Assembly: GCF_018860245.1 (NCBI RefSeq)
Contig: NZ_JAHKPD010000013.1
Span: forward strand, 1-64,000
From: Pseudotamlana agarivorans
GTDB lineage: Bacteria > Bacteroidota > Bacteroidia > Flavobacteriales > Flavobacteriaceae
Reading direction: 5' to 3'
Length of the DNA stretch: 64,000 nt
The position numbers were made by a program, and so were the translations under genes. This document shows positions 10,463 through 47,825 of this stretch, piece after piece (the stretch's first letter is position 1; each line of letters begins with the position of its first letter). The notes under the pieces are model-generated. The model was not told where the DNA came from, did no database searches, and saw only the letters and a program-made list of their open reading frames with translations.

Positions 10463-11479
10463 ATGAAAGCAACACATTATGAGGGGAATAAAACCTTCAC
10501 TGTAATTGAAAAACAAATTGTAGAGCCAGCTGCTGGCGAAGTACGAATTAAAGTGGCTTATGTTGGTGTTTGTGGTACAGATGTTCATATATATCATGGA
10601 ATGATGGATAAAAGAGTAAACATTCCTGTAACAATCGGACACGAAATGTCTGGTGTTATTGATGCTGTTGGAGCAGATGTAACGAATTATGCTGTAGGTG
10701 ATAAAGTAGTCGTACGTCCATTGGATGATAGAAAAGTAAAAGCTTCAGATAAAGGATTTAATCATATTTGCGAAGAATTAAAATTTATTGGCATTGATAG
10801 TGAAGGTGCGATGCAACAATATTGGAATGTCCCAACATTTACTCTTCATAAATTAAAGGAAACAACCGACTTAAAGTTGGCTGCATTAATTGAGCCACTA
10901 TCGGTTGCAACTCATGATGTGCGTAGAAGTGGATTGAAAAAAGGAGAAACCGCTGTCGTATTGGGTGGAGGACCAATTGGTTTATTAGTAGCGATGGTTG
11001 CCAAAGAAGTTGGGGCTCAGGTAATTATTTCTGAAGTTAACCCTAAACGTATTGAGAAGGCAAAAGCCTTAGGCTTTGACGCTGTTAGCCCAATTGATGT
11101 AGATTTAGTTGAATATGTAAAAGGCAAAACGGACAACCGTAGAGCCGATGTGGTTTTTGAAGTTGCCGGGGTACAACCTGCCTTGGATATTATGTGTGAA
11201 GTAGCTGGAATTAGGGGGCGTATTGTTATGGTCGCTATTCATGGTGTTAAAAAAGAGGTTGATCTATTTAAATTTTTCTGGAAAGAATTATCATTAATCG
11301 GTGCGAGAGTTTACGAAAAAGTAGATTATGAAAAGTCGATTGAATTGATAACTGCAAACGAATTGCCATTCGAAGATATGATTACCGATGTACAACCACT
11401 AAGTAACATTCAACAGGTATTTGAAAATATAGACAATAACCCCGATGGCTTGAAAGTCTTAATGGATTGTCAATTGTAA
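10463..11479 (+). CDS. Zinc-type MDR dehydrogenase, probable L-KDGal dehydrogenase
   Basis: This 338-residue cytoplasmic medium-chain dehydrogenase/reductase has the catalytic zinc site (CGTDVHIYHG and GHEMSGVIDAVG) and an NAD(P)-binding GGGPIG motif near residue 170. It lacks the four-cysteine structural-zinc lobe of classical alcohol dehydrogenases, since only one Cys is seen in that region. In the known L-AHG pathway an enzyme of this type oxidises 2-keto-3-deoxy-L-galactonate to the 2,5-diketo acid. It overlaps no gene and is followed after 20 bases by the SDR that would carry out the next reduction, which supports this role. A general polyol or threonine dehydrogenase is the alternative. 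Confidence 0.75.
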   Translation: MKATHYEGNKTFTVIEKQIVEPAAGEVRIKVAYVGVCGTDVHIYHGMMDKRVNIPVTIGHEMSGVIDAVGADVTNYAVGDKVVVRPLDDRKVKASDKGFNHICEELKFIGIDSEGAMQQYWNVPTFTLHKLKETTDLKLAALIEPLSVATHDVRRSGLKKGETAVVLGGGPIGLLVAMVAKEVGAQVIISEVNPKRIEKAKALGFDAVSPIDVDLVEYVKGKTDNRRADVVFEVAGVQPALDIMCEVAGIRGRIVMVAIHGVKKEVDLFKFFWKELSLIGARVYEKVDYEKSIELITANELPFEDMITDVQPLSNIQQVFENIDNNPDGLKVLMDCQL

Positions 11480-11499
11480 TAACAAAAAAAATTAAAGAC

Positions 11500-12270
11500 A
11501 TGAGTATTTTAAAAACATTCAGTTTAGAAGGAAAAACAGCTTTAGTTACCGGTTGTAAAAGAGGAATTGGTAAAGCTATGGCTATTGGTTTGGCTGAGGC
11601 TGGAGCTAACATTATTGGTGTTTCGGCTTCTTTAGAGTTAAACGGTAGCCAAGTTGAAAAAGAGGTTCAAGCGGTAGGTAAAAATTTCAGCGCATACCAG
11701 TGTGATTTTTCAGACAGAAAATCATTATACACTTTTATTGAAGCCGTTAAAAATGATCATCCACAAATTGACATTTTAGTAAACAATGCAGGAACAATTT
11801 TAAGAACTCCTGCAGCGGAACATCCAGATGAAATGTGGGATAAAGTAATTGAAGTCAATCAAAATGCACAGTTTATCTTAACGCGTGAGTTTGGTAGAGA
11901 TATGGTGGCAAGGGGATCAGGTAAGGTGATTTTCACAGCCTCATTATTAACTTTTCAAGGAGGTATTACTGTACCAGGATATGCAGCAAGTAAAGGAGCT
12001 ATAGGTCAATTAACCATGGCTTTTGCTAACGAATGGGCTGGTAAAGGTGTTAATGTAAATGCTATTGCTCCAGGGTATATTGCAACAGATAATACAGAAG
12101 CATTAAGAAATGATGCAGTAAGATCAGAGTCTATTTTATCACGTATTCCAGCAGGACGTTGGGGTGAGGCAAAAGATTTTGCTGGACCAACAGTATTCCT
12201 TGCTTCAGAAGCGGCTGCTTATATGCACGGTTCTATCGTTTTAGTAGACGGTGGCTGGATGGGAAGATAA
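11500..12270 (+). CDS. KduD-like short-chain dehydrogenase, probable 2,5-diketo-3-deoxygalactonate reductase
   Basis: The product is a 256-residue classical SDR. The chosen ATG at 11500 matches the KduD N-terminus (L-x-T-F-S-L-E-G-K-T-A-L-V-T-G); an upstream in-frame ATG at 11467 would overlap the previous gene and adds an unrelated 11 residues. The cofactor motif is TGCKRGIG, the NAG motif is NNAGT, and the catalytic Ser/Tyr-x-x-x-Lys is seen as S-L-L-x15-Y-A-A-S-K. KduD reduces 5-keto-4-deoxyuronate to KDG, and the homologous step in L-AHG catabolism reduces the 2,5-diketo acid to D-KDG. Its position after the zinc dehydrogenase makes the second role more likely. It is cytoplasmic. Confidence 0.8.
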   Translation: MSILKTFSLEGKTALVTGCKRGIGKAMAIGLAEAGANIIGVSASLELNGSQVEKEVQAVGKNFSAYQCDFSDRKSLYTFIEAVKNDHPQIDILVNNAGTILRTPAAEHPDEMWDKVIEVNQNAQFILTREFGRDMVARGSGKVIFTASLLTFQGGITVPGYAASKGAIGQLTMAFANEWAGKGVNVNAIAPGYIATDNTEALRNDAVRSESILSRIPAGRWGEAKDFAGPTVFLASEAAAYMHGSIVLVDGGWMGR

Positions 12271-13715: not shown

Positions 13716-15170
13716 ATGGCAGAAATAAAAGATTATCAGTTATTTATAAATGGTGAATGGAGAACATCAACTTCGGGAGAAACCATTGATATCGTAAGTC
13801 CGTCTACAGAAGAAGTTGTCGCACGTGTACAAAACGGAACAGCTGAAGAAGCTAACGAAGCTTTAGAAGCTGCCGATAAAGCTCAAAAAGAATGGAAGAA
13901 ATTGCCTGCTCGCGAACGTGCAGATTTGTTATATAAATTAGCTGATGAAATTGAAGCAAATACAGAATATTTAGCTCAATTATTGACTAAAGAACAAGGG
14001 AAGTTATTAAAAGTAGCTCGTTTTGAGGTTGCTGTTACTGCTTCATTTATTAGATACGCATGTGAAGGTGCAAGAAGAATTGAAGGTGATATTATTCCTT
14101 CCGATAATCCGAATGAGCAAATTTGGATTCAAAAAATCCCTCGTGGTGTAGTAGTGGCTATTACCGCATGGAACTTCCCATTAGCTTTAGCCGGTCGTAA
14201 ATTAGGTCCAGCTTTAGTAGCAGGTAATACGATTGTAATTAAACCAACTTCTGAAACGCCATTGGCAACTTTAGAGTTAGGAAATTTAGCCAATAAAGTA
14301 GGAATTCCTGCAGGTGTTATTAATATCCTTACAGGGCCAGGCCGTGTGATGGGGAATACCTTAGTAGAGAGCCCAATAACCAAAATGGTAACAATGACAG
14401 GTTCTACACCTGTGGGACAGCAAATTGCAAGAATTGCTGCCGATAACCTAACCCATGTTCAGTTAGAATTAGGGGGTAAAGCGCCGTTTATTGTGTTTGA
14501 AGATGCTGATATTGATGCGGCTGTAGCTAGTGCACTGCATTCTCGTTTTGATAATTGCGGACAAGTTTGTACTTGTAACGAGCGTATGTATGTGCACGAG
14601 GCTATTTATGACACGTTCATGGAGAAGTTTATCGCGGCAACCAAAGCCATTAAAGTGGGTGACCCAATGCTAGAGGATACCGATATGGGGCCAAAGGTAA
14701 ATGCTTCAGAATTAAAACACATGGAGCATTTAGTGAAAGTGAGTATTGATGAAGGAGCAACGGTTGCGACTGGAGGAAAACGTCCAGAAGGTGCTCAGTT
14801 TGAAAAAGGCTACTGGTTTGAACCAACGGTGCTTACAAACGTAACCCAAGACATGACTATTGTGCATGAAGAATCTTTCGGACCAATTTTACCAGTATTA
14901 AAATTTAGCTCATTTGATGAAGTTATAGGATATGCTAATGACTGTGAATACGGTTTAGCCGCTATGGTATTTACTAACGATATGAACACGATCATGAAGT
15001 GTAATGATGAGTTAGAATATGGAGAAATCTATGTGAATAGAGGTCATGGTGAGCAGCATCAAGGTTTTCATAACGGATATAAGTTATCGGGTTCTGGAGG
15101 TGAAGATGGTAAATATGGTTTCGAACAATATTTAGAAAAGAAGACATTTTATATTAAACATAAAGCCTAA
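13716..15170 (+). CDS. Aldehyde dehydrogenase, probable 3,6-anhydro-L-galactose dehydrogenase
   Basis: This 484-residue cytoplasmic NAD(P)-dependent ALDH has the E-L-G-G-K-A-P-F motif carrying the catalytic Glu and the nucleophile Cys in NCGQVCTC. The closest named families are AldA-type lactaldehyde/glycolaldehyde dehydrogenases. In agarolytic bacteria such an enzyme oxidises L-AHG to 3,6-anhydro-L-galactonate, the first step of the pathway. Its presence in the same operon as a cycloisomerase and GH117 supports that assignment. A paralogue with the same motifs lies at 38205-39656 and a third ALDH starts at 63780, so specificity should be tested separately for each. Confidence 0.8.
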   Translation: MAEIKDYQLFINGEWRTSTSGETIDIVSPSTEEVVARVQNGTAEEANEALEAADKAQKEWKKLPARERADLLYKLADEIEANTEYLAQLLTKEQGKLLKVARFEVAVTASFIRYACEGARRIEGDIIPSDNPNEQIWIQKIPRGVVVAITAWNFPLALAGRKLGPALVAGNTIVIKPTSETPLATLELGNLANKVGIPAGVINILTGPGRVMGNTLVESPITKMVTMTGSTPVGQQIARIAADNLTHVQLELGGKAPFIVFEDADIDAAVASALHSRFDNCGQVCTCNERMYVHEAIYDTFMEKFIAATKAIKVGDPMLEDTDMGPKVNASELKHMEHLVKVSIDEGATVATGGKRPEGAQFEKGYWFEPTVLTNVTQDMTIVHEESFGPILPVLKFSSFDEVIGYANDCEYGLAAMVFTNDMNTIMKCNDELEYGEIYVNRGHGEQHQGFHNGYKLSGSGGEDGKYGFEQYLEKKTFYIKHKA

Positions 15171-18989: not shown

Positions 18990-20084
18990 ATGAGTACAAA
19001 AATATCAAACATAAAAACCCAATTATTTACCGTGCCATTGCCAGAAGTGATGTCTGACGCCAAACACGGTGATCATTATCATTTTGAATTAGTTACGGTT
19101 ACAATAACCTTAGAAGACGGTAGTGAAGGAACAGGTTATACTTATACTGGTGGAAAGGGCGGATTTGCCATTAAAGCTATGGTAGAGCACGACTTTACTG
19201 AAGCTTTAATTGGTAAAGACGGCACAGATGTAGAAGGCATTTATGATTTTCTAGAGTGGCATATTCACTATGTAGGTCGTGGTGGAATTGCCTCATTCGC
19301 GATTTCAGCGGTAGATATTGCCCTTTGGGATATTCGTTGTAAAAAAGCAGGTCAACCGCTTTGGAAAATGGCTGGAGGCGCAGGAAATACTTGTAAAGCC
19401 TATTGTGGTGGTATCGATTTAATGTTTCCTATTGAAAAACTTTTAGGAAATATGAAAGGTTACCTAGAAAGCGGATTTAACGCTGTGAAAATTAAAATAG
19501 GCCGTGATAATTTGGAAGAAGACTTAGAACGTATAAAAGCGGTTCGTGAATATATTGGCCCAGATGTGACCTTTATGGTAGATGCTAATTATTCCATGAC
19601 TGTTGAGCAGGCTATTAAAGCTATTGAAGGCTTCAAAGACCAAAACATTACTTGGTTTGAAGAACCTATAATTCCAGATCACTACAAAGGCTATGCTGAA
19701 ATCGTTGAAGCAACAGGTTTTCCTTTAGCAATGGGTGAAAATTTACATACCATACATGAATTTGAATATGCTTTTGAGCTGTCTAAATTATCTTTTATTC
19801 AACCTGATGCTTCCAATTGTGGTGGGGTGACTGGTTGGTTAGCAGCGGCACGATTAGCCGATAAACACGGTATCCCAGCTTGTTCTCACGGCATGCAAGA
19901 GCTGCATGTGAGTTTAGTCTCTGCTCAACCCAATTCAGGGTGGTTAGAGGTGCATAGTTTTCCTATCGATCAATATACAACGCGTCCATTAGTGGTGGAG
20001 AATTACAGGGCAGTTGCTCCAGATTGCCCAGGAATAGGTGTTATTTTCAATTGGGAAAAATTAAGTCCGTACGAACAACAATAA
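18990..20084 (+). CDS. Enolase-superfamily enzyme, probable 3,6-anhydro-L-galactonate cycloisomerase
   Basis: The 364-residue cytoplasmic enzyme has the enolase-superfamily capping domain and barrel. The KxK base motif is seen in VKIKIG. Metal ligands are in MVDANYSM (Asp), WFEEP (Glu) and MGENL (Glu). A late His in CSHGMQELH is another possible acid/base. In known agar catabolism a member of this superfamily opens and isomerises 3,6-anhydro-L-galactonate to 2-keto-3-deoxy-L-galactonate. Co-localisation with GH117 and the ALDH makes this the best assignment. Galactonate or rhamnonate dehydratase activity is the main alternative. Confidence 0.8.
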
Positions 20085-37025: not shown

Positions 37026-38133
37026 GCCTATAAATATTGTTTGTCACGCGATGTTATTAAGTGTTTTGGTGCTGTGGTATCACGATTTTAAAGCAGTACA
37101 AAAGACCAAAACCCACGCCGTGAATATTATTCATAAGGGCATTAGTTTAACCCAACCAGTAAACACAGTGTTGGTTGAAGTTAAAGATGCTAAAAATCAC
37201 GCCCTTTCTTATTATATGGATGTAGAGTCAGTGACCTGTGGTGATAGTCAGTGTCGTGTAGACCGCGTTAGAATGTATTGGGATGATTTAGGTCGTTTTA
37301 ATCGTATAGAATTGCCTCACGGGGTACATTTAGAAAAGGCTCAGGGCCTTCAGTTTTCTACAGCAGATTATTTAAAATTAGAGATGATTTTAAAAGATGA
37401 AAATTCAGGATTAAAGGATTTTTATAAGCATGAATTAGTTAGTACCGTTGGAGGAGAAGGCGTAGATGCCTTGTCTGGAGCAACTGTGTTTATAGAAAAA
37501 TCAGCTTATGTGGAAGGTGCTGTTTGGACCTGTTATACCCTTTGGCATTGGGCTCATAATGATATTAACGACATCATTCGGATTATAACTGGTGATGACT
37601 ATTCTAATTTAGCCTTAGAACAACTATTAGAACAAGAGGGTTATCAAAAGTTTGCTATAGAACAGCTATCACGCCGTCACGTTTATAATGAAGGTTTATT
37701 GAATGCTATTATTGAGGTAAACCAAGTACGGCCAGAACTTTTAAGAACCAGTTTAGCTTATCTAGAAACCCTACCAAAACAAGACTTTGATACAGCGATT
37801 AAACGCTTTTACCAAGGTTTGCCAGAATGTAATCATTTGGAGTTTTTTAAATCGATGATTCAATCTGAACAGGTTTATCCTGCTGATTTTTTTAGTGTCG
37901 TTAAAATAAAGGTGTCTGATTTATCTTTTCAGGAAATTCATTTACTGTTAGAAGTGTTCCGCAGCAAAATAGAGATTGACAGCGTTGCGATGGAACAATT
38001 AGTACAACTATTACATCAGAATGATTTTTTAAAAGCACGTGAAGTGTATTATTTTTTAAAAACACAAGACCTTACCGAAAATCAAGGTAAGGTCTTGTTA
38101 GCTTTTTATGAAGCTAATAAAACGCGACTTTAA
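37015..38133 (+). CDS. Membrane-anchored protein with an FMN-binding-like SGAT motif
   Basis: The 372-residue product has an N-terminal hydrophobic segment (about 6-22) and no lipobox. Residues near 147-158 read GGEGVDALSGATV, with S154-G-A-T157 resembling the flavinylation motif of RnfG/NqrC-type FMN-binding domains. There, ApbE attaches FMN to the Thr. A pair of cysteines (C75, C80) precedes it. The C-terminal half (about 190-370) is a helical repeat region of HEAT type. Its start overlaps the end of the FAD oxidoreductase gene, which implies translational coupling and perhaps a redox pair. The family is otherwise unknown to me. A 13-base-arm hairpin lies inside its 3' end. Confidence 0.65.
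   Translation: MLARPINIVCHAMLLSVLVLWYHDFKAVQKTKTHAVNIIHKGISLTQPVNTVLVEVKDAKNHALSYYMDVESVTCGDSQCRVDRVRMYWDDLGRFNRIELPHGVHLEKAQGLQFSTADYLKLEMILKDENSGLKDFYKHELVSTVGGEGVDALSGATVFIEKSAYVEGAVWTCYTLWHWAHNDINDIIRIITGDDYSNLALEQLLEQEGYQKFAIEQLSRRHVYNEGLLNAIIEVNQVRPELLRTSLAYLETLPKQDFDTAIKRFYQGLPECNHLEFFKSMIQSEQVYPADFFSVVKIKVSDLSFQEIHLLLEVFRSKIEIDSVAMEQLVQLLHQNDFLKAREVYYFLKTQDLTENQGKVLLAFYEANKTRL
38064..38098 (+). terminator. Strong hairpin inside the 3' end of the preceding gene
   Basis: ACAAGACCTTACC at 38064-38076 pairs perfectly with 38086-38098 across a nine-base loop. It lies 35 bases before the stop codon at 38133. The right arm is followed by TTAGCTTTTTATG, a weak T-tract, so it may act as a terminator or an mRNA-end stabiliser embedded in coding sequence. 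Confidence 0.45.
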
Positions 38134-38204: not shown

Positions 38205-39656
38205 TTAATAATCTAAGTAAATGGTCTTCTTTTGTAAATGTTGGTCTATACCGTATACACCATCTTCGCCACCAAGACCAGCGGTTTTGTGTCCAGAATG
38301 ATAGCCTTGAATATAGCCAGTAATTTGTTTATTAATAAAGATGGTTCCTATTTGTAATTGATCAATTGCTTTTTGGTGAATTTTATAATCATTGGTAAAT
38401 AAATAAGCCGATAAAGCTTCTTCACGACTGTTATTAATCGCTAAGGCTTCATCAAAACCATCAATCTTAACAATAGGGAGTACCGGGGCAAATAACTCTT
38501 GAGTCGTTGTTGCGCCATCATGTTTTACGTTAGTTAAAATGGTTGGAGCATACCAGTTTCCTTTTTCAAAAGCAGCGCCTTCTGGACGGCGACCACCCAT
38601 AACCAATTCAGCTCCGTTTGCGATATCTTGTTTTACCAAACTATCAACACGGTCTAAACCTGGTGCACTTACATTTGGCCCCATATTCACCGAGGTATCA
38701 AAGGGATTACCTACTTTAATTTGTTGAACACGTTTAATTAATTTTTCGGTGAACTCATCAGCAATTTTACCATCAACAAACACCATTTCGTTGCAAATAC
38801 ATACTTGTCCGCAATTGGCATATCTAGAGATTGCAGCAGCTTCTACGGCTTTATCAATATCGGCATCTTCTAAGACGATAAAAGGCGCTTTGCCTCCTAA
38901 TTCTAAAATCAACCCCGTGATATTATTTGCCGCAGCTCGGTACATGGCTCTTCCGGCATTGGTACTTCCCGTTAAGCTAATTAATCTCGTTATCGGACTC
39001 TCAACCAATAAACTTGCGGCTTGAGCATTGGTCGTAGCTACCATGTTTACAACCCCGTTTGGAATCCCTACGGCTTCTACGAGTTTACAGAATTCAGAGC
39101 AGGTTGTAGGGGTGAGTTCGTGTGGTTTTAAAATAACCGTATTTCCGGTCACTAAAGCAGGGCCGAGTTTTCTTCCGATTAAAGCTAGAGGGTAATTGTA
39201 AGCGCATAAGGCTACAGTCACGCCAAAAGGCACTTTGTGAATTTCTAGTCTTTCGTTAGGATTTTCAGAAGGAAAAATAGCACCTTGAATACGGCGTCCT
39301 GCTTCTGCAGCATACTGCATGTAACGCACGGTATCATCAACCTCCGCTAGGGCTTCGGCATAGGTTTTTCCTTGTTCTTTTACTAAAAGGGTAGCAAAGT
39401 GTTCTTTTTGTTCCTTTAGTTTATCACATAAAGCAAAAATGTAATTGGCTCGAGTTTGTGCTGGAGTTAAATGCCAAGCAAACTGTGCTTTTTCTGAAGT
39501 TTCTAATGCGTATTGCACGTCATCGGCTGTACAGGCCGTAACCGTGGCATAGGTTTCATTATTAGCGGGGTCTTGCACTTCAAAACGTTCTCTTTTAGAA
39601 GCATCTAACCATTCGCCATTTATATAAACCGGGTAATGTGTCATGTCTTGTGCCAT
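38205..39656 (-). CDS. Aldehyde dehydrogenase of the CoA operon
   Basis: The 483-residue NAD(P)-dependent ALDH has the E-L-G-G-K-A-P-F motif and nucleophile Cys in NCGQVCICN. It is a paralogue of the enzyme at 13716, with similar length and motifs but a different tail. It lies at the downstream end of a minus-strand set with two CoA-transferases and an enoyl-CoA hydratase. It is separated from the hydratase by a 162-bp inverted-repeat element, so co-transcription is likely but not certain. Its substrate may be a semialdehyde or sugar aldehyde formed by that pathway. Confidence 0.82.
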   Translation of the reverse strand: MAQDMTHYPVYINGEWLDASKRERFEVQDPANNETYATVTACTADDVQYALETSEKAQFAWHLTPAQTRANYIFALCDKLKEQKEHFATLLVKEQGKTYAEALAEVDDTVRYMQYAAEAGRRIQGAIFPSENPNERLEIHKVPFGVTVALCAYNYPLALIGRKLGPALVTGNTVILKPHELTPTTCSEFCKLVEAVGIPNGVVNMVATTNAQAASLLVESPITRLISLTGSTNAGRAMYRAAANNITGLILELGGKAPFIVLEDADIDKAVEAAAISRYANCGQVCICNEMVFVDGKIADEFTEKLIKRVQQIKVGNPFDTSVNMGPNVSAPGLDRVDSLVKQDIANGAELVMGGRRPEGAAFEKGNWYAPTILTNVKHDGATTTQELFAPVLPIVKIDGFDEALAINNSREEALSAYLFTNDYKIHQKAIDQLQIGTIFINKQITGYIQGYHSGHKTAGLGGEDGVYGIDQHLQKKTIYLDY

Positions 39657-39677
39657 AATGGATGTGTTTTTTTAGTT

Positions 39678-39839
39678 ATACCAATTTAATTGTATAATGT
39701 TGTGTTTTTAATTTGAATTAATTTTTGTTCAGATGAAATAGAAAATTCAAGCATAGCTATAGCTACGGTTTTATTTTATATTGAAATATGAGCGAAAAGG
39801 AAACAAATTATATGCGACATTGTACGGTTAAAATGGTAT
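39678..39839. repeat. MITE-like element with terminal inverted repeats
   Basis: The 162-bp unit starts ATACCAATTTAATTGTATAA at 39678 and ends with the imperfect complement (TTAAAATGGTAT ending at 39839). The interior contains AGCATAGCTATAGCT and no gene. The right end touches the stop codon of the enoyl-CoA hydratase gene. Short AT-rich elements with similar ends are dispersed in flavobacterial genomes, from memory. Confidence 0.6.
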
Positions 39840-40621
39840 TATTTATAGTTCGGTTTTCTTTTTTCAACAAAGGCTAAAAAGCCTTCTTTGGCGTCATGCG
39901 TATCGTAAAGCGCATGGACAGAGTCGGTTTCAAAATCTAACGACTCTTGCAAGGTCATGCCTTTATGCATTTGCACATATTTTTTTATTGCCGCCATGGC
40001 TTCTCCGGCTCCAAGTGTTAATTCATGAATATATTCAGCCACTTTTGCTTCAAAGGCATTTGCTGGATATAATTGATTGAATAAACCAAAGTCGTAAGCT
40101 TTTTGAGGAGATATGTTATTCCCGGTTACCAATAATTCCATGGCTCTACTAGCGCCAAGTAAATCAATCATTCTTGGTGTTCCGCCGTTTCCAGGCATCA
40201 GGCCTAGTTTCACTTCTGGTAATCCGATGAGGTAGTTGCCTTCGGCACCCAAACGTATATCGCAAGCCATAATAAGTTCTAAACCACCGCCTAAACAATG
40301 TCCGCTCACCGCTGCAATGACAATTTTCGGACTCCTGGAAATGGCTTCAGAGACGGCTCGTGCAGCTAATACCATTTCGGCATTTTCTTCCGTAGTGTTT
40401 TGACTAAATATTTTGATGTCTGCACCCGCGCAGAAGAATTTTTCCGAAGTACTGTTTATCAATATCACTTTAACAGCATCGTCTGCACTGGCTCGGTTCA
40501 CTGTTGCGCTAATTTGCTCTAAAAAGCCTTTGTAATAACTATTGGCTTTAGGTCTATTTAGACTAATCGTGACTAAACCAAGTGTTTTTTTTACAATTAA
40601 ATATGATGGATTACTGCTCAT
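39839..40621 (-). CDS. Enoyl-CoA hydratase/isomerase family protein
   Basis: The 260-residue crotonase-fold enzyme keeps both usual catalytic glutamates: one in S-G-H-C-L-G-G-G-L-E-L and one in L-P-E-V-K-L-G-L-M-P-G. The oxyanion-hole segment C-A-G-A-D-I is present. Crotonases may hydrate, isomerise, cleave (retro-aldol) or decarboxylate acyl-CoA thioesters, so the exact reaction cannot be read. It is 11 bases downstream of the second CoA-transferase gene, which would supply its CoA thioester substrate. Confidence 0.85.
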   Translation of the reverse strand: MSSNPSYLIVKKTLGLVTISLNRPKANSYYKGFLEQISATVNRASADDAVKVILINSTSEKFFCAGADIKIFSQNTTEENAEMVLAARAVSEAISRSPKIVIAAVSGHCLGGGLELIMACDIRLGAEGNYLIGLPEVKLGLMPGNGGTPRMIDLLGASRAMELLVTGNNISPQKAYDFGLFNQLYPANAFEAKVAEYIHELTLGAGEAMAAIKKYVQMHKGMTLQESLDFETDSVHALYDTHDAKEGFLAFVEKRKPNYK

Positions 40622-40632
40622 GTGCGTATTGT

Positions 40633-41778
40633 TTAATTTACCAATTCTTCGTTAATCGCTTCGGTGTGTTCTCCTAAAATAGGACTGCCAATTTCTGAAG
40701 TTAACCAGTCACCATTAATTTGAATCGGGCAGCGGGTGGTTTTATATGTATAGCCGTTGGTTCTATTTACTTCTTGAACCATTTCTAAGATTTTAAAGGC
40801 TTCTTGGTCAAACAATGTTTTCCAATCCATGACTTCGGCACACCAAATATCAGCAAGCTCTAAAACCGCCAACCAATCTTTAGTCTTTTTTGTTTTCAGG
40901 TGTTGTGCTAAAATGCCTTTTATTTCATCACGCTTAGTAAACCAACTTTCTGGTTCTGGGTAATTACTTAAAGCTTCACAGCCAATTAATTCTCCAATAA
41001 ATGGAATAGACCCCATAGCCAAGGCAATCGCGCCATTTTTGGTAGCATAAATCCCGTAAGGTGCGCCTAAATAAGCGTGTGCCGAATTACTTTTAGGTCT
41101 AAGTGTTGGCTGCCCACCATCTCTAAAGAAACAGGTAATCGATTCAAACTGATATTCAATAGCAGATTCTAGCATACTCACTTCTACTTTAGCCCCAACA
41201 TGCTGTGATTGTTTTTGATACAGACTTGCCAAAATGCCTTGTGCGAGATGCGCACCTGATAAAATATCAACAACGGCCAATCCAATAGGGACGGGGCCAG
41301 CACCATCGTTTCCGTTTAAAGTGGTTAAGCCTGTTAGCGATTGAATGAGTAAGTCTAAACCTGGTTTGTCTTTCCAAACCCCTTCTTTACCATAGCCCGT
41401 TAGTTCAGCGTAGATAATTTGGGGGTTAAGTGCTTTTATTTTATCATAATCAATACCTAACCGATTTGCAACACCAGGTCTGAAATTATGAATTAAAACA
41501 TCTGCTTTTTCAATGATTTTATAAACTTTTTGCCGTTCAACATCATTCTTCAAGTCAGCAGCATAACTTTCTTTATTTCTATTGATCGCATGAAACATAG
41601 ACGATTCGTCATCTAAAACAAGATTTGAGAAATATAAGTCTCGACACAAATCACCCGTTTCTGGTTTTTCTATTTTTATAACCCGGGCTCCTAAATCAGC
41701 CAATCTTAAACTTGCTGAAGGACCAGATAAATACTGACTAAAATCGACAACTAATATGCCTTCCAATGGTTTACTCAT
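40633..41778 (-). CDS. Class III CoA-transferase, second of a tandem pair
   Basis: The 381-residue protein belongs to the CaiB/BaiF (formyl-CoA transferase) family. The CoA-binding N-terminus (LSGPSASLRLADLGARVIKIE) and H-N-F-R-P-G-V motif are clear. The likely catalytic aspartate is D171 in V-V-D-I-L-S-G, which in this family carries the acyl-CoA anhydride intermediate. Its start overlaps the end of the paralogous gene by four bases. The pair could form a heteromer or act on two different acids. Substrate unknown. Confidence 0.85.
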   Translation of the reverse strand: MSKPLEGILVVDFSQYLSGPSASLRLADLGARVIKIEKPETGDLCRDLYFSNLVLDDESSMFHAINRNKESYAADLKNDVERQKVYKIIEKADVLIHNFRPGVANRLGIDYDKIKALNPQIIYAELTGYGKEGVWKDKPGLDLLIQSLTGLTTLNGNDGAGPVPIGLAVVDILSGAHLAQGILASLYQKQSQHVGAKVEVSMLESAIEYQFESITCFFRDGGQPTLRPKSNSAHAYLGAPYGIYATKNGAIALAMGSIPFIGELIGCEALSNYPEPESWFTKRDEIKGILAQHLKTKKTKDWLAVLELADIWCAEVMDWKTLFDQEAFKILEMVQEVNRTNGYTYKTTRCPIQINGDWLTSEIGSPILGEHTEAINEELVN

Positions 41779-42926
41779 AACGCGTTTAGATTAAATTCAT
41801 TATCAATACTTCGATTATCTTCTCCTACTTTTGGCGCCGATTTTTTATTAAAAATTCGTTTGCCGTCAATACGAATCGGGCAACGTGTCGTTTTCATGGT
41901 GATACCATCAGAAGTAAGGACGTCTTGGTCCATTTGAAGGGCTTGATAGCCTTCGTGAGCTAAAAATTCTTTGTAATTATAAACATCGGAAACTCTAAAA
42001 TCCATAGGCTCAAAAATCGATAACCAATGTGCTGTGGTTTCTTTGACTAATTCAGCAGCTAAGAAATTCATGATGTCATCACGCTTGTCAAACCAAGTTG
42101 TTTGGTCTACAAATTCAGCTGGTAACGAAACACCAATGGCTTTGGCTAATTGGTCTAAAGGCGTTAAAGCTATTGAGATGTAACGGTCCTTGGTTTTGTA
42201 AACGCCGTATGGTGCATCAATGTAAGCATGAGCATTTCCTTGTTTTGCTCGTTTAGGTAATTGTTTACCATTATTTAAAAAGGCGGTGAGCATTTCAAAT
42301 TGAATATCTAAGGTCGATTCTAATAAACTGACTTCAATTTTAGCGCCTTTGCCGGTTTTGTTTCTTTCGATAAGGGCGGCTAAAATGCCTTGTACCAAAT
42401 GGACACCTGTAAAAATATCAGATGTTGCTAAGCCCGAAGCTGTAGGTTCGTCTGCTTCATTTCCGCTGAGGTTTACAAAACCTGACAAGGACTGAATTAA
42501 CAAATCTTGTCCTGGTTTTTTAGCCCAAGGTCCTACAGGGCCGTAACCGGATACCACGCCATAAATTAATTTCGGGTTGATAGCCGCTACGGTGTTATAG
42601 TCTAAGCCAATTTTTTCCATAACGCCAGGGCGGAAGTTATGCGTCATCACATCGGCCTGAGCAATCAATTTTTTGATACGCTCTAAATCTTTGGGGTCTT
42701 TAAGGTTCGCTGCATACGATTGTTTGTTTCTATTGGCGGTATGAAAAACCATACTGCTTTCGTCAATAAAAATATTTTTAAGCGCAATGCCTCGGCCAGC
42801 TTCACCAGTTCCTGGGCGTTCAATTTTGATGACACGTGCCCCTAAATCGGCCATTTTTAAGCCTGCTGAAGGCCCTGCCATAAACTGCGCAAATTCAAGA
42901 ACTGTTATTCCTTCTAATGGTAACAT
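41775..42926 (-). CDS. Class III CoA-transferase, first of a tandem pair
   Basis: The 383-residue CaiB/BaiF-family protein has the same N-terminal CoA-binding pattern (MAGPSAGLKMADLGARVIKIE), the H-N-F-R-P-G-V motif, and the probable catalytic D170 in T-S-D-I-F-T-G. The two paralogues look related along the whole length. Their four-base overlap (ATGA-type) indicates translational coupling. DddD, a DMSP-cleaving enzyme, also combines two such domains, but in one chain; a split version is only one possibility. A repeat-containing gap of 158 bases lies upstream, before the solute-binding-like gene. Confidence 0.85.
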   Translation of the reverse strand: MLPLEGITVLEFAQFMAGPSAGLKMADLGARVIKIERPGTGEAGRGIALKNIFIDESSMVFHTANRNKQSYAANLKDPKDLERIKKLIAQADVMTHNFRPGVMEKIGLDYNTVAAINPKLIYGVVSGYGPVGPWAKKPGQDLLIQSLSGFVNLSGNEADEPTASGLATSDIFTGVHLVQGILAALIERNKTGKGAKIEVSLLESTLDIQFEMLTAFLNNGKQLPKRAKQGNAHAYIDAPYGVYKTKDRYISIALTPLDQLAKAIGVSLPAEFVDQTTWFDKRDDIMNFLAAELVKETTAHWLSIFEPMDFRVSDVYNYKEFLAHEGYQALQMDQDVLTSDGITMKTTRCPIRIDGKRIFNKKSAPKVGEDNRSIDNEFNLNAL

Positions 42927-42980
42927 TTATAGTGTTTTATTATTGTTTTTCTGATTCACTGTATAGTGTTTAATATTTTA

Positions 42981-43047
42981 TGTCACCCCAAGGAAACGAC
43001 GAACCTCTATGATAATTAAAAGATTCTTCACTTCCTTCTGAATGACA
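42981..43047. repeat. Degenerate REP-like palindrome
   Basis: The 67-bp sequence starts TGTCACCCCAAGGAAACGAC and ends in an imperfect inverted copy (CTTCCTTCTGAATGACA). Palindromes of this TGTCA...TGACA type recur between genes in many Bacteroidota genomes, from memory. It sits between the solute-binding-like gene and the first CoA-transferase gene and may affect mRNA stability. Confidence 0.5.
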
Positions 43048-43084
43048 ATCACAGTAGCAACTGGTATACTTACATCGATTTAGT

Positions 43085-44236
43085 TTATTTTTGAAGAGAT
43101 TCCATGTATAAGCTATTTAAACCTTCTAAAACGTGTTTTGCATTACCTCCATCTTTCATAAAGGCACGAATTGGTGCTCCAGCACGATCTTGGAAAAACA
43201 TATGCCCGTGATAACGCGGTCTTAAAAAAGCTCTGTCTAAAGTAGGTAGGGTGTCCTTAAAGTAATCTAGCGCCACAAAATTATTTGTGGTGTCTAACCA
43301 AGCTTCTCGGTGCCCTGGTTGTCCGCCATAATCAAAAAATACGGTTTTTTGTACTTCTGGAGAGGCGACGTATTCAGCATATTGTAATGCCATGTCTTTG
43401 TTTTCTGAACTCGAAGAAATGGCCAAGCCTGTACCACCTAAAGTTGTGATTAAGTGTTGCCTCTCTAAAGTTACCGTATCGTGAAATTTCAAGATATGAT
43501 TGGCATAACCACGTTTTGAATAATTGGTATAACCGTAAGCAAAAGGGGAGTAGGCGAACTTATCGGTACGTGTCATGGCTTCATAAACTTTAATGGGGTT
43601 CATGTCGTAGCATGATGGATCGATATACTTTCCTAGTTCACCGAGAATTTCTAAAGATTTTAACCCGATTTTTTCAGAAACAAAATATTGTTTTGTTAAA
43701 GCCACATCTTCACCTAAAGTAGAGCAAATCATATAAAAACTCATTAAAGTATCTTGCGGAATTCCAGGAATAGCAACCAAACCTTGTTTGGCTAAATCCA
43801 TCACGTCTTCCCAGGTTTTTGGTGTTTCTCTTCCAATTTTTTCTAATAAATCTGGACGAGATGCAGCAACAGGCGTAGCCGCATCAATAGCCAAAGCACT
43901 TTGATAACCGTCAAAGCAGTAGCTCTCGTGTGATTTTCCCACTGAATTCGCCGCTTGGTTGTCTAAAAAAGCTTTAGGCAGGTGCTCGTTTAGAGGAATG
44001 ATAACACCTGTACGTGCTGCAAAACCCGCCCAAGGGTGGTCTATAATTAATAAATCGTAACGTTTAGCTAATTGGTCAATCGGTTCATCAGCAAAAGCCT
44101 GTAGCGAACGTTTTTCCCAAGTGATTTCTACGTGTGGGTTTAATTCGTGGAAGCGTTGAGCAGTTGCCACCGCAGAGGTAAATCCGCGACTGTGATCCCA
44201 AGTAATGCCTTTTAATTGAATATTTTTTTGTGACAT
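43085..44236 (-). CDS. Solute-binding-protein-like protein without a signal peptide
   Basis: The 383-residue protein has the fold signature of family 1 extracellular solute-binding proteins: a lobe beginning I-Q-L-K-G-I-T-W-D-H-S-R-G-F, the D-L-L-I-I-D-H-P-W hinge region, and late G-L-A-I-S-S-S-S-E-N-K-D-M-A-L-Q. It begins MSQKNIQLKG with no hydrophobic signal and no lipobox. No ABC permease or ATPase genes are nearby. As annotated it would be cytoplasmic. It could therefore be a soluble ligand-binding or enzyme partner of the CoA-transferases. An upstream start that adds a signal is unlikely, because a repeat element precedes it. Confidence 0.7.
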   Translation of the reverse strand: MSQKNIQLKGITWDHSRGFTSAVATAQRFHELNPHVEITWEKRSLQAFADEPIDQLAKRYDLLIIDHPWAGFAARTGVIIPLNEHLPKAFLDNQAANSVGKSHESYCFDGYQSALAIDAATPVAASRPDLLEKIGRETPKTWEDVMDLAKQGLVAIPGIPQDTLMSFYMICSTLGEDVALTKQYFVSEKIGLKSLEILGELGKYIDPSCYDMNPIKVYEAMTRTDKFAYSPFAYGYTNYSKRGYANHILKFHDTVTLERQHLITTLGGTGLAISSSSENKDMALQYAEYVASPEVQKTVFFDYGGQPGHREAWLDTTNNFVALDYFKDTLPTLDRAFLRPRYHGHMFFQDRAGAPIRAFMKDGGNAKHVLEGLNSLYMESLQK

Positions 44237-44248
44237 GTTTATATGATA

Positions 44249-44379
44249 GAAGCGGTCTCAAAAACGCTTCGATACGTCATTCTGAACTTGTTTCAGAATC
44301 TCATCAAACTGATTTTTAGTAGTTGTGAGAACCTGAATCAAGTTCAGGTTGACGACAGGTTTGTTTTTGAGACCGTTTC
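44249..44379. repeat. Palindromic MITE/REP-like element, copy B
   Basis: The ends GAAGCGGTCTCAAAAAC (44249-44265) and the complement of GAAACGGTCTCAAAAAC (44363-44379) match at 16 of 17 positions. The interior (ACGTCATTCTGAACTTG...TCAAGTTCAGGTTGAC) is related to copy A at 5066-5200. It lies between the GH2 and solute-binding-like genes. Confidence 0.7.
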
Positions 44380-44402
44380 ATAGTTTTTAAATTAATACAT
44401 TT

Positions 44403-46952
44403 TTATTCTTCAAATCCTCTAGCTCTAGGCGTTTGGGTACCACTTTCGTACTTTTTGCCGTTCTGTCCGGTAAATTCATCAAAGAAGAAGTAATACGAAC
44501 CGTATCCGCCACGGCCTTCAGCATTTTCTTGCTCTAAGCGTTTCTCTTTCCATGCTTGGAAATGTGCTGTGGCTTCAGCTTGATCACCAATTAAAAAGAA
44601 GTAGTCGTTATGCGAAATCTGATTGCCTTTTTTGTCTAGTAACTCTAATTCTACATAGAATTTTTCATCAACTTTACCTAAAACATCTTCGTTAATAGCG
44701 AAGAATTGTTTGGCGCTATTTTCTTCAATTTCAGAAACTTTGTAGCTTTCCTTGAATAAAACCTTTTTAGAATCATTTAAGATTTTAAAATTGATTTTAC
44801 AGTTTTTATAAGTTTCATAGAAATCGTTAACCACCCAAATGTTTCCTGTAAAAGGTTCATCGGTATGCCATCTACGCTTTTTGAATTCAAAGTTGACCAA
44901 TAAAGGTTGGTAGGCTTTTTGAACAAAATAGTAGGAGTTTTTAGGTTTTTGGTAATTATCAACAATACCCCATTTCATATCAGGCCAGTAGGTGATGTAG
45001 TGACATAAAGCGATGGCGCTTAAACTTGGTTTATCTCTTCGGAAATGCTCAATACCATTTTGGAAAATAATTCCTTGGGCATCTTGAGTAGCGTTCACAA
45101 ATTCTTCTAACGAACCTTTCATTTCACTACCAAATACATCCCAGTTCTGCATACGTAAACGGGTTAAATCGGCCCAGTGGTGTCCCCAACTTAAACCTGG
45201 TGTCCATAGTTCTTCTTCAGGAATAAATTTCTTTAAACTTTCTACGGAAGGCACCGAGGTAATAGCAAACTCCGGAACAATAGGGTAGCCATCGGCTTTG
45301 GTTTGGTACCAGTCTTCGTGTAGCCATTCGCCCATATCGTAGAAATAACGTAAGGCATGAACCGCTTCTCTAGGTTTAAAACCAGCTTCTTGAGCCACAT
45401 GGTCGGTCATTGGTGAATCAGGCACATAAGGAAGTGGTGCATAAGCCTGTAAAGAATCACCTAAACGCTCAAGGAATTCTCTACCAGCAATAGGGTCACG
45501 TGTACGGAACATCATTTCTTCACCACCTTCCATCATGATAAGCGATGGGTGGTTACGACGTTCTTTTATCACTTTAACACCTTCATTAAAAATGGCTGAA
45601 ACGTTTTCTTCTTCCATAGGAATATTTCCTGTTCCTAACGGAATCATATCTTGCCAGATGGTCATTCCCATTTCATCAGCATACTGATAGAATTCTGGGA
45701 TTTCTGGTGGGTGCCATCCAAAAATTCGGATGTTATTCATGTTCATTTCTTTCGCTAAACGAATCAGCTCAAAGTATTCTTCTTTACTCGTTCTTCCTGT
45801 GAAAATATCTGGTGGGCCACCCCAACACGCCGAACGGATAAAGTGAAATTTCCCGTTGATATAAGTTGAACGCGGGAAGGTCACATCAACATCTTTTTTA
45901 AAGCCAGGATTCCATTTAGAGGTCACTTCACGAATACCAAAAGTAGTTTCGTTAACATCTTGATTAACATCACCATCTTTTAAGGAGATTTTCATTTGGT
46001 ATAAATTAGGATCACCTAAGTCCCAAGGCCACCATAATTTTGGTTCATCTAAATGAATGGTATGTTTTACAAGGTGTTTTCCAGGGGCAACATTTTTAGA
46101 AAACTTCATGTTTATCTTTTTAGATTCGAAGTTTTTACCTTCTAAAGACACTACAAAGTCCATGTTTTTGGTTGCTCCCGATTTGTTTTCAACCGTTAAT
46201 TCTAAGTTCACGTCTGCCGAACCATCGTCGTTTATTTTATTGTTGGCATACACATCATCAAAACGCACTTTGCCGCTGCGTACCATTTTTACAGGACGCC
46301 AGATGCCCATAGGGGCTACATCACGCCAGTAATCACCAAACCATGGTGTTTTCTTACCAGCCACGAATGCATTGACCTGTGGAGCAGGGTTAATCTTAAC
46401 AATTAGCATGTTTTGAGCCTTAAGGTAATCGTGCCCACTAACACGTAAAAATTCATTAACATTGAATGAGAAGCCTGAAAAGGCTCCTTCGTTTTTACCT
46501 AAATAATGGCCGTTTAGCCAAACTTCACAGCTGTAATCAACGCCTTCAAAAACGAGGTCTACCAATTGGTTTTCTACACCTTCTTTGACTTGAAACTGAT
46601 AAGCATACCACCATTCGTACTGTTGTACCCATTGAGCTTTGACGCTGTTTCTTCCAAAATACGGGTCTTCAATTACGCCGGCTTTCCATAAATCGGTGTA
46701 CACGTCGCCCGGTACTTGTGCGTTGTTCCATACTAATGTTTCAATGTCTTCTGAAGGGAGTTTGTGTAAGCCACGTTTCACGCCTTCGCCAGGAAGCATC
46801 ATTTTAAAGCGCCACTTCATACCACTAAAGTCTCTAACCGATTGACTGTTTTCGTCGTGAGAAAATGTCGTGTTTGGTTGGGCGAATGTTATCATGGAGC
46901 TCCCGAAGAGGCATAAACAGCACCATATAACTTTTAAGAGTTTTGTATTCAT
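44403..46952 (-). CDS. GH2 glycosidase of the mannosidase-like type with altered catalytic surroundings
   Basis: The 849-residue protein has a signal peptide (to about TFAQ, residue 25). It has the GH2 jelly roll (about 40-230), Ig-like domain, TIM-barrel (about 350-640) and C-terminal beta domains. The likely acid/base is E478 or E479 in MMEGGEEMM, where mannosidase- and glucosaminidase-type GH2 proteins usually have a W-x-G-N-N-E-like motif. The nucleophile is probably E561 in I-V-P-E-F-A. The substrate is unclear; it is not close to the GH2 at 7912. It is first in the minus-strand set and faces the IclR gene across 114 bases. Confidence 0.8.
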   Translation of the reverse strand: MNTKLLKVIWCCLCLFGSSMITFAQPNTTFSHDENSQSVRDFSGMKWRFKMMLPGEGVKRGLHKLPSEDIETLVWNNAQVPGDVYTDLWKAGVIEDPYFGRNSVKAQWVQQYEWWYAYQFQVKEGVENQLVDLVFEGVDYSCEVWLNGHYLGKNEGAFSGFSFNVNEFLRVSGHDYLKAQNMLIVKINPAPQVNAFVAGKKTPWFGDYWRDVAPMGIWRPVKMVRSGKVRFDDVYANNKINDDGSADVNLELTVENKSGATKNMDFVVSLEGKNFESKKINMKFSKNVAPGKHLVKHTIHLDEPKLWWPWDLGDPNLYQMKISLKDGDVNQDVNETTFGIREVTSKWNPGFKKDVDVTFPRSTYINGKFHFIRSACWGGPPDIFTGRTSKEEYFELIRLAKEMNMNNIRIFGWHPPEIPEFYQYADEMGMTIWQDMIPLGTGNIPMEEENVSAIFNEGVKVIKERRNHPSLIMMEGGEEMMFRTRDPIAGREFLERLGDSLQAYAPLPYVPDSPMTDHVAQEAGFKPREAVHALRYFYDMGEWLHEDWYQTKADGYPIVPEFAITSVPSVESLKKFIPEEELWTPGLSWGHHWADLTRLRMQNWDVFGSEMKGSLEEFVNATQDAQGIIFQNGIEHFRRDKPSLSAIALCHYITYWPDMKWGIVDNYQKPKNSYYFVQKAYQPLLVNFEFKKRRWHTDEPFTGNIWVVNDFYETYKNCKINFKILNDSKKVLFKESYKVSEIEENSAKQFFAINEDVLGKVDEKFYVELELLDKKGNQISHNDYFFLIGDQAEATAHFQAWKEKRLEQENAEGRGGYGSYYFFFDEFTGQNGKKYESGTQTPRARGFEE

Positions 46953-47066: not shown

Positions 47067-47825
47067 ATGAGCAAATATGTAGCACCGGCCTTAGATAAAG
47101 GATTGGATATTTTAGAATATTTATCTGAGATAAAAATTCCACAATCCCAAGGGGAAATCGCACAAGGACTTAATAAGTCGCCTAACGAATTGTACCGTAT
47201 GCTGGTTTGTTTAGAGCAAAGAGGTTATTTAATTAAAAGTCTGAGCTCGGGTAAATATGCTTTATCTTTAAAATTATATCAATTGTCTCATAGGCACAGT
47301 CCTATTGATGGTTTATTAAAATCGGCCAAACCTGTAATTGAAGAATTGGCCAATGTGACCAACCAATCGTGTCATTTAAGTATGATTTACCATGGTAAAC
47401 TCATGGTGATTTCTCAAATGAGAAGTCCTGGTCCTGTTTCTTTATCTATAGAAGAAGGAAGTTTATTCCCTCTAACAAAAACGGCTTCTGGCCGGGTGTT
47501 GTTAGCTTTTTTGGATTCGGATAAAACCCAGCATCTTTTAAAGAGTGACGCTGAATTTTCTGCTTTATCCAAAAAGGATCAGAAGCTATTTTTGATGCAA
47601 TTAGAAACCATAAAAAAAACTGGTCATGAAATTTCCGAAAGTGATCTCACTATGGGAGTGACCGATATAGCGGTTCCTGTTGGTAATCCAGATTTAGTTA
47701 CTTACTGCGCTTTAGCAATTTCATCGTTAACTTCTATCAATGAAAAAAACAAATCTGGAGCTAATTTCGTAGATAAATTATTCGAAGCTTCAAATGCGAT
47801 AAAATCGCTCATTGGCGAACAGTAA
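47067..47825 (+). CDS. IclR-family transcriptional regulator
   Basis: The 252-residue protein has an N-terminal winged helix (about 1-75; G-L-D-I-L-E-Y-L-S and S-x-G-E-I-A-Q-G-L-N-K-S-P-N-E-L-Y-R) and the C-terminal IclR effector domain (about 85-250), which binds small organic acids or sugar derivatives. It is divergent from the GH2/CoA gene set and should control it. The effector may be a catabolic intermediate of that pathway. Confidence 0.9.
   Translation: MSKYVAPALDKGLDILEYLSEIKIPQSQGEIAQGLNKSPNELYRMLVCLEQRGYLIKSLSSGKYALSLKLYQLSHRHSPIDGLLKSAKPVIEELANVTNQSCHLSMIYHGKLMVISQMRSPGPVSLSIEEGSLFPLTKTASGRVLLAFLDSDKTQHLLKSDAEFSALSKKDQKLFLMQLETIKKTGHEISESDLTMGVTDIAVPVGNPDLVTYCALAISSLTSINEKNKSGANFVDKLFEASNAIKSLIGEQ

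Follow-up and report, generated by a model that had tools for sequence, protein, structure and literature searches.

What pathway is served by an operon in which a protein of the transport-binding type stands next to two coenzyme A (CoA)-transferases? The question is raised by a stretch of 64,000 nucleotides from Pseudotamlana agarivorans (contig NZ_JAHKPD010000013.1, positions 1 to 64,000; hereafter the window). Here, an initial annotation pointed to an undescribed set of genes comprising a GH2 glycosidase, a solute-binding-like protein (SBP), two class III CoA-transferases (CoT1 and CoT2), an enoyl-CoA hydratase (ECH), an aldehyde dehydrogenase (ALDH) and an IclR-family regulator. The core of this set is SBP-CoT1-CoT2. 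We tentatively propose that the set represents a conserved operon for the CoA-dependent catabolism of a sugar acid, carried mainly by users of red-algal galactans, a reading that may well be correct but could equally give way to another.

Gene content and conservation of the operon

The window genes were checked as open reading frames and then searched against Pfam, using family cut-offs, and against NCBIfam. All seven genes of the operon region are open frames and score above the Pfam cut-offs for the expected families, which upholds the positions and families first assigned to them. The order on the minus strand is GH2 (44403..46952), SBP (43085..44236), CoT1 (41775..42926), CoT2 (40633..41778), ECH (39839..40621) and ALDH (38205..39656), with the regulator gene (47067..47825, plus strand) divergent from GH2. 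The SBP matches SBP_bac_8 with 51 bits and SBP_bac_1 with 45 bits, while CoT1 and CoT2, which overlap by 4 bp, match CoA_transf_3 with 323 and 300 bits. The ECH is a crotonase of the hydratase/dehydratase type (ECH_1, 184 bits) and the ALDH is of the non-acylating type (Aldedh, 474 bits). The whole 3.73-Mb genome has five ECH_1 matches and two class III CoA-transferases, and since both transferases sit in the operon, the grouping of these genes is not due to chance.

To follow the set outside this strain, genome contigs were searched with the SBP, which gave 234 relatives from which 80 loci were retained, their parts being recognised by match to reference genes. A class III CoA-transferase directly follows the SBP in 79 of the 80 loci and two transferases are present in 77. 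The exception to direct adjacency is Flavobacterium sp. UMI-01 (L013), in which both transferases are found on the same contig approximately 11 kb away. The same gene order recurs in relatives, the nearest in the scan being Tamlana strains, and carriers include Flavobacteriaceae, Flammeovirga, Gilvimarinus, Microbulbifer, Neiella, Agaribacter, Vibrio, Hirschia, Hymenobacter, Pedobacter and Demequina. Thus, the loci span Bacteroidota, Pseudomonadota and one member of the Actinomycetota, and the combination of CoA-transferases, crotonase and ALDH is supported as a conserved set. The GH2 gene, initially counted within it, is present in 31 loci and absent from 49; it was therefore rejected as a defining part and is an accessory gene outside the core.

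Around the core, the remaining parts are exchangeable. An ECH is found in 43 of the 80 loci and a MaoC protein in 26 (either one in 64), and an oxidoreductase of the ALDH/3,6-anhydro-L-galactose dehydrogenase (AHGD) type is found in 40 and Gfo/Idh types in 39; 74 loci have at least one of these two and 5 have both. ECH is paired with ALDH in 38 loci, whereas MaoC is accompanied by Gfo in 26 of 26. A second SBP-like family, SBP2, is present in 38 loci and in 37 of these it stands with a Gfo/Idh oxidoreductase. Accordingly, ECH plus ALDH, as in the window (variant A), and SBP2 plus Gfo/Idh with or without MaoC (variant B) substitute for each other, although the Fisher p values for co-occurrence of parts ignore relatedness. 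In L045, CoT1 and CoT2 are separated by a MaoC gene, and frames of equal length (167 aa) take this position in L040, L049, L059 and L064. This exchange of parts suggests a common logic: a sugar-oxidising enzyme, a CoA-transferase unit, an enzyme of the enoyl-CoA hydratase type and the SBP. The carnitine-type layout, in which a CoA-transferase and a hydratase or dehydratase share one operon, is found here as well, and 64 of the loci have a recognised hydratase.

Plasmids provide a further view of the family. The SBP occurs in 146 of 72,556 plasmid records, of which 16 regions were opened. Fifteen of these are annotated, and for plasmids the deposited annotation was preferred to called frames, which are not dependable in such GC-rich loci; the plasmid rows of the reference-gene matching were likewise set aside. 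A transferase adjoins the SBP in 12 of the 15 annotated loci, with overlapping gene ends in 10 of the 12, and is one or two genes away in L102 and L104. Sugar genes surround 12 of the 15, the setting being mixed or unclear in L090, L102 and L104. The gene order in L096 is Gfo-isomerase-aldose epimerase-SDR (short-chain dehydrogenase/reductase)-CoT-SBP-ECH-FAH, while L097 has CoT-SBP-ECH-FAH opposite an epimerase and an SDR. In L093, L098 and L100, MaoC-CoT-SBP is located near an amidohydrolase, a sugar ATP-binding cassette (ABC) transporter, MR_MLE and RhaM; the amidohydrolase of L098 resembles L-fucono-1,5-lactonase with a score of 103 bits, under the cut-off of 400. These five loci can be read as sugar-acid pathways. 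Consequently, of the substrates initially suggested, a sugar-derived acid gains support from the 12 plasmid loci set among sugar genes, and phenylpropanoid or dimethylsulfoniopropionate (DMSP)-like compounds do not.

Agar-degrading marine bacteria, rhizobia, Streptomyces and Bacteroidota from soil all have parts of the module. Fifteen family loci were also fetched by position, including those of the more distant SBPs L131-L136. In these six loci, Flavobacteriaceae have a remoter version of the module, accompanied by SDR and ManD-like proteins. Among the loci tested for further neighbours, L131 has both a confirmed 7-bladed lactonase and GH38, and L136 has GH38.

Proteins of the operon and a proposed mechanism

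The CoA_transf_3 profile covers the full length of both CoT1 and CoT2, which are 44% identical to one another. Residues D170 of CoT1 and D171 of CoT2 are both in the lists of positions conserved in at least 95% of sequences. The residue alignment to solved chains, made for CoT1, places D170 over the Asp of SUGCT and formyl-CoA transferase, and we take D170 and D171 to be the catalytic aspartate, that is, Asp169 of formyl-CoA transferase. A tree was built from 86 of the 201 transferases, labelled CoT1 or CoT2 by best BLAST match, and in it one branch (support 97/96) separates all CoT1 from all CoT2 rows across Bacteroidota, Pseudomonadota and Demequina. The lone transferase that rhizobia have falls outside the two groups, and their pairing is less well supported (91/75). 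By this tree, CoT1 and CoT2 appear to be an old duplication retained as a pair, which suggests that the two proteins probably form a heteromer. Heteromeric class III enzymes such as benzylsuccinate CoA-transferase (9FN0) likewise consist of two related transferase subunits; unlike that enzyme, CoT1/CoT2 lack a benzylsuccinate context and the heteromer is putative. In one family genome, a 770-aa frame (L127:11271-13583) separates CoT1 and CoT2.

The SBP shows remote sequence kinship, over partial length, to ABC sugar-binding proteins such as SmoF and Lin1841. Its N-terminus has a best 10-residue hydrophobicity of 0.63, in comparison to 2.15-2.44 for four reference ABC SBPs; a fifth reference, whose start is doubtful, reaches 1.59. 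When the start was set at the Met nearest the conserved motif, the highest value among 81 SBPs was 1.35, which may be compared with 1.54 and 1.41 for the cytosolic ECH and CoT1 of the window and 1.69 for the plasmid relative L097. Thus, no signal peptide of the periplasmic ABC type was found by hydrophobicity in the 81 SBP-like sequences. Further, no ABC permease or ATPase genes were found among the 30 Pfam-assigned frames of the window (45 frames of at least 120 aa in all). Several alphaproteobacterial relatives have sugar ABC transporters nearby and these usually come with an SBP of their own. Unlike ABC sugar-binding proteins, then, the operon SBP has no signal peptide and its constant genetic partner is a CoA-transferase. 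Eight basic residues (H15, R17, R28, K42, R43, H67, R339 and R341) are invariant in 43 sequences, the window SBP and 42 of the 80, so that an anionic ligand is expected. The SBP could therefore be a cytosolic binder that presents an anionic sugar acid to the transferases. The SBP2 family (L041:13451-14683 and relatives) also lacks a signal peptide in the three members checked.

The closest solved protein to the ALDH is 6J75 (444 bits), which is tabulated as an AHG dehydrogenase (PMC10163077). The AHGD of the window (13716..15170, plus strand) scores 760 bits against the same structure and is 47% identical to the ALDH. The ALDH was accordingly rejected as a true AHG dehydrogenase and is regarded as a paralogue. 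Its residues N154, E252 and C286 are in the list conserved in at least 95% of sequences; we presume that the cysteine and glutamate are catalytic, the glutamate being typical of non-acylating enzymes. The best NCBIfam model is PRK10090 (447 bits, under the cut-off of 500), which we take to be the AldA/lactaldehyde dehydrogenase type. In the ECH, E115 and E136 are in the corresponding list and align with Glu residues of 5ZAI, a 3-hydroxypropionyl-CoA dehydratase; they are presumably both catalytic glutamates of crotonase hydratases/dehydratases. As the ALDH is paralogous to AHGD and is exchanged for Gfo/Idh in sister clusters, it fits a first, sugar-oxidising step, and the final oxidation of a cleavage product, as initially proposed, is unlikely.

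From gene content, conservation, exchange of parts, the conserved catalytic-type residues and genomic association, we infer a series of four reactions. The ALDH, or Gfo/Idh in sister clusters, would oxidise an aldose towards its acid, and CoT1/CoT2 would then load the acid with CoA taken from a donor or from the product. CoA loading acidifies C2, making beta-elimination at C3 possible. Here, the ECH, or MaoC in sister clusters, would take the C2 proton and eliminate the C3 oxygen, yielding an enol that would become the 2-keto-3-deoxy acyl-CoA. Finally, CoA would pass to the next acid and the 2-keto-3-deoxy acid would be freed, as in the carnitine CaiB/CaiD cycle. That cycle, as generally understood, also uses a class III CoA-transferase and a crotonase to dehydrate a beta-hydroxy acid with recycling of CoA. 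The operon differs from it in its sugar setting and in having an SBP-like protein, an ALDH and a pair of paralogous transferases. The usual dehydratases of sugar acids, of the enolase superfamily or the IlvD type, work without CoA.

Setting and regulation of the operon in the window

By its gene content, the window is a red-algal galactan locus, with sulfatases, GH2, GH3, GH16, SusC/D, the AHGD and a putative cycloisomerase. The cycloisomerase is an enzyme with MR_MLE domains (18990..20084, plus strand), whose identity is taken from its context beside AHGD. A frame at 22220-23443 belongs to the Pfam family GH43 and is taken by us as GH117. A P450/reductase/alcohol dehydrogenase (ADH)/esterase set near the operon resembles, we assume, a methyl-galactose demethylation set. 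Between an FAD oxidoreductase and the ALDH lies a 372-aa protein (37015-38133) without a Pfam or NCBIfam match. A Zn-ADH and a KduD-like SDR (10463..12270, plus strand) complete the relevant context and are discussed below.

The GH2 N-terminus resembles a signal peptide (best 10-residue hydrophobicity 2.53), which makes the enzyme of secreted type, and its closest solved relative is the beta-mannosidase 5N6U. The IclR neighbour is a recurrent feature: an IclR gene was found in 51 of the 80 loci by reference-gene match and is directly divergent from GH2, SBP or RhaT in 41, counting gaps of 40-400 bp only. Direct control by IclR, which had been part of the original proposal, is putative; a specific common operator was not found in 59 IclR-side intergenic regions. 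A dyad, TATAT-N3-ATATA, occurs in 12 of the 59 (shuffled maximum 6), these sequences being AT-rich and related, and its extended form with two mismatches occurs in 20 (shuffled mean 13, maximum 21). At each of the nine spacings, the mean palindrome score lies 0.03-0.2 above the best of 15 crude shuffles, with the same AT-richness and relatedness. A sigma-70 promoter scan gave 21 sites where 26.8 were expected and terminator-like sites numbered 13 against 8.4; neither was used.

In this strain the operon is not a compact unit, because the SBP-CoT1 and ECH-ALDH gaps carry insertions that are missing from L009, a relative with operon proteins 95-99% identical. The ECH-ALDH gap (182 bp versus 20 bp in L009) contains a MITE-like palindromic repeat (39678..39839; MITE, miniature inverted-repeat transposable element), and L009 has a clean empty site at this position. 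The repeat is approximately 162 bp long and AT-rich, has 11 further near-full-length copies in the genome at 82-92% identity and ends in imperfect 12-nt inverted sequences, ATACCAATTTAA and TTAAATTGGTAT. The SBP-CoT1 gap (42927..43084) has an insertion of approximately 140 bp, making it 158 bp in comparison to 16, 10 and 10 bp in L009, L010 and L011. At the GH2-SBP junction (44237..44402), there is a palindromic intergenic sequence that differs in L009 by sequence and alignment.

Substrate, competing explanations and meaning

The link to red algae was followed through marker genes. Among 47 hand-picked carriers from the 80, a cycloisomerase is present in 43, 42 of them at 52-96% identity and Demequina at 40%. 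Since carriers have both, the idea that the module replaces the AHG cycloisomerase was rejected. GH117-like matches (E 1e-30) were found in 40 of 49 genomes, those of G021 and G024 reaching no more than 40-44% identity, and are missing in four Microbulbifer, Hirschia and the four terrestrial genomes. Of 299 genomes of the family, 11 contain an SBP that is at least 56% identical; matches at 33-53% were excluded and would add 11 genomes, 2 with a GH117-like gene. The GH117-like gene is present in 27 of the 299 and in 9 of the 11 with SBP (Fisher p 5e-9, shared ancestry ignored), the P450 in 22 and again 9 of the 11 (p 5e-10, with the same proviso) and the cycloisomerase in 24 and 8 of the 11.

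As given in PMC5943477, the AHG pathway runs through 2-keto-3-deoxy-L-galactonate (L-KDGal) to 2-keto-3-deoxygluconate (KDG), and a gene pair of Zn-ADH/SDR type is listed with EC numbers in an agarolytic Aquimarina (PMC10163077). The Zn-ADH and KduD-like SDR of the window probably convert L-KDGal to KDG. Relatives that are 70-91% identical belong to some of the SBP-CoT clusters: 14 of the 80 loci include the ADH and 15 the SDR. ADH copies were searched in 21 genomes, 7 of which have two. In all four of the two-copy genomes in which the cycloisomerase was searched (G021, G022, G023 and G047), one ADH corresponds in both coordinates and identity to that of the SBP cluster, whereas the second copy is at most 5 kb from the cycloisomerase. 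Such a cluster seems to carry an L-KDGal outlet of its own, which suggests L-KDGal as the product and L-galactonate as the likeliest acid: loss of the C3 oxygen of L-galactonate would give L-KDGal. In Gilvimarinus and Microbulbifer, the module is near galactonate dehydratase-like genes and, in Gilvimarinus, also a galactonate transporter-like gene (below cut-offs). Together, these points support a further galactan sugar and are not proof of it. L-galactose-6-sulfate is a porphyran sugar (PMC5943477), so that the most likely substrate would be L-galactonate from porphyran L-galactose.

Several observations weigh against CoA-dependent sugar-acid catabolism and against this choice of substrate. 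In some distant loci the SBP is found without a CoT, within 18 kb in L132, L133, L134 and L136 and within 9 kb in L095, showing that the two are separable. In 16 of the 80 stretches neither ECH nor MaoC was recognised, and six have neither ALDH nor Gfo. Many relatives have ordinary sugar-acid dehydratase families (MR_MLE, ManD-like) beside the module, so that a CoA-dependent dehydration would look redundant. The cycloisomerase is missing in four terrestrial carriers (two Hymenobacter, Pedobacter and Pontibacter), the GH117-like and P450 genes are missing in 2 of the 11 close-SBP genomes, and the Fisher tests of SBP association take no account of shared ancestry. The L-KDGal enzymes sit in variant B loci and not in operons like that of the window. 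Most genomes (14 of 21) have one ADH copy, and this genome-wide search covered the ADH half of the pair only. In G352, G353, G357 and G024, which fall outside the cycloisomerase search, the sole ADH belongs to the SBP cluster, and the ADH near the cycloisomerase of G023 is just 52% identical to the query. Finally, ALDHs work best on free aldehydes, which favours AHG-like sugars over L-galactose.

One alternative keeps the CoA logic and changes the substrate of variant A to an ether or methylated sugar acid, for example 2-O-methyl-3,6-anhydro-L-galactonate, whose C3 ether would be eliminated by the ECH. It fits the kinship of the ALDH to AHG dehydrogenase, its closest solved relative, and the P450 set adjoining the operon, which we read as one for methyl-galactose demethylation, the P450 being present in all 9 close-SBP genomes with a GH117-like gene. 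Within the 27 GH117-like genomes, however, the association of P450 and SBP lacks significance (p 0.14). Variant B, moreover, works with Gfo/Idh and sugar symporters and is also found in terrestrial genomes that have no cycloisomerase, leaving this explanation unlikely. Somewhat less probable again is a role for the CoA part downstream, in which an aldolase fragment (glyceraldehyde or lactaldehyde) would be oxidised by the ALDH and the resulting C3 acid loaded with CoA and dehydrated by the ECH. The sub-threshold match of the ALDH to PRK10090 and the RraA-like aldolases of some loci point that way, but the exchange of ALDH for Gfo/Idh and the L-KDGal enzymes of sister clusters suit a six-carbon acid better.

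The SBP might also be a sensor or stray transporter relic outside the chemistry, with the CoA-transferases, ECH and ALDH serving general acid metabolism. SBP_bac families are otherwise known as transport proteins and a few loci do have the SBP without a nearby CoT; yet the near-constant succession of SBP and CoT in genomes, their adjoining and mostly overlapping genes on plasmids and the invariant basic residues make this improbable. Activation of a phenylpropanoid or DMSP-like aglycone freed by the GH2 is the least credible of all. Class III CoA-transferases, crotonases and ALDHs are known in such pathways, but most loci have no GH2 (49 of 80) and the neighbours are mostly sugar genes.

For the sugar-acid operon that we favour, published routes offer partial parallels. 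The AHG pathway (PMC5943477, PMC10163077) shares the habitat, a related ALDH and, in some sister clusters, the same end enzymes. As presented in these sources it has no CoA step, and with its cycloisomerase also present, the operon would be an extra branch. According to a 2024 KDGal review (PMC11219438), bacteria reach L-KDGal by the AHG pathway. The L-glucose/L-galactose pathway of Luteolibacter LG18 (PMC12632266) also takes L-galactose via L-galactonate to KDG in a bacterium; it differs in proceeding through a 5-keto acid, formed by oxidation, and the dehydration of altronate, and the searched text of that paper makes no mention of CoA. The terms IclR and solute-binding are likewise not found in the main text of the Zobellia carrageenan paper. 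The view that the set is undescribed holds to the extent that, among the papers listed by searches of the open-licence PMC literature, no title or abstract opening describes such a module.

What merits further work is the SBP-CoT1-CoT2 core, together with the oxidoreductase and hydratase that are exchanged around it. It is conceivable, though more speculative than the operon's general assignment, that the module represents an undescribed cross-phylum mode of sugar catabolism: sugar acids would be dehydrated while bound to CoA as thioesters, a cytosolic SBP would be the dedicated substrate carrier for paired class III CoA-transferases and, in red-alga degraders, the missing L-galactose branch would run from L-galactonate to L-KDGal. 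If true, this would be a new mode of carbohydrate catabolism, one in which a transport-type binding protein has been taken over for use in the cytosol, and it could fill a gap in how the L-galactose of porphyran is used.

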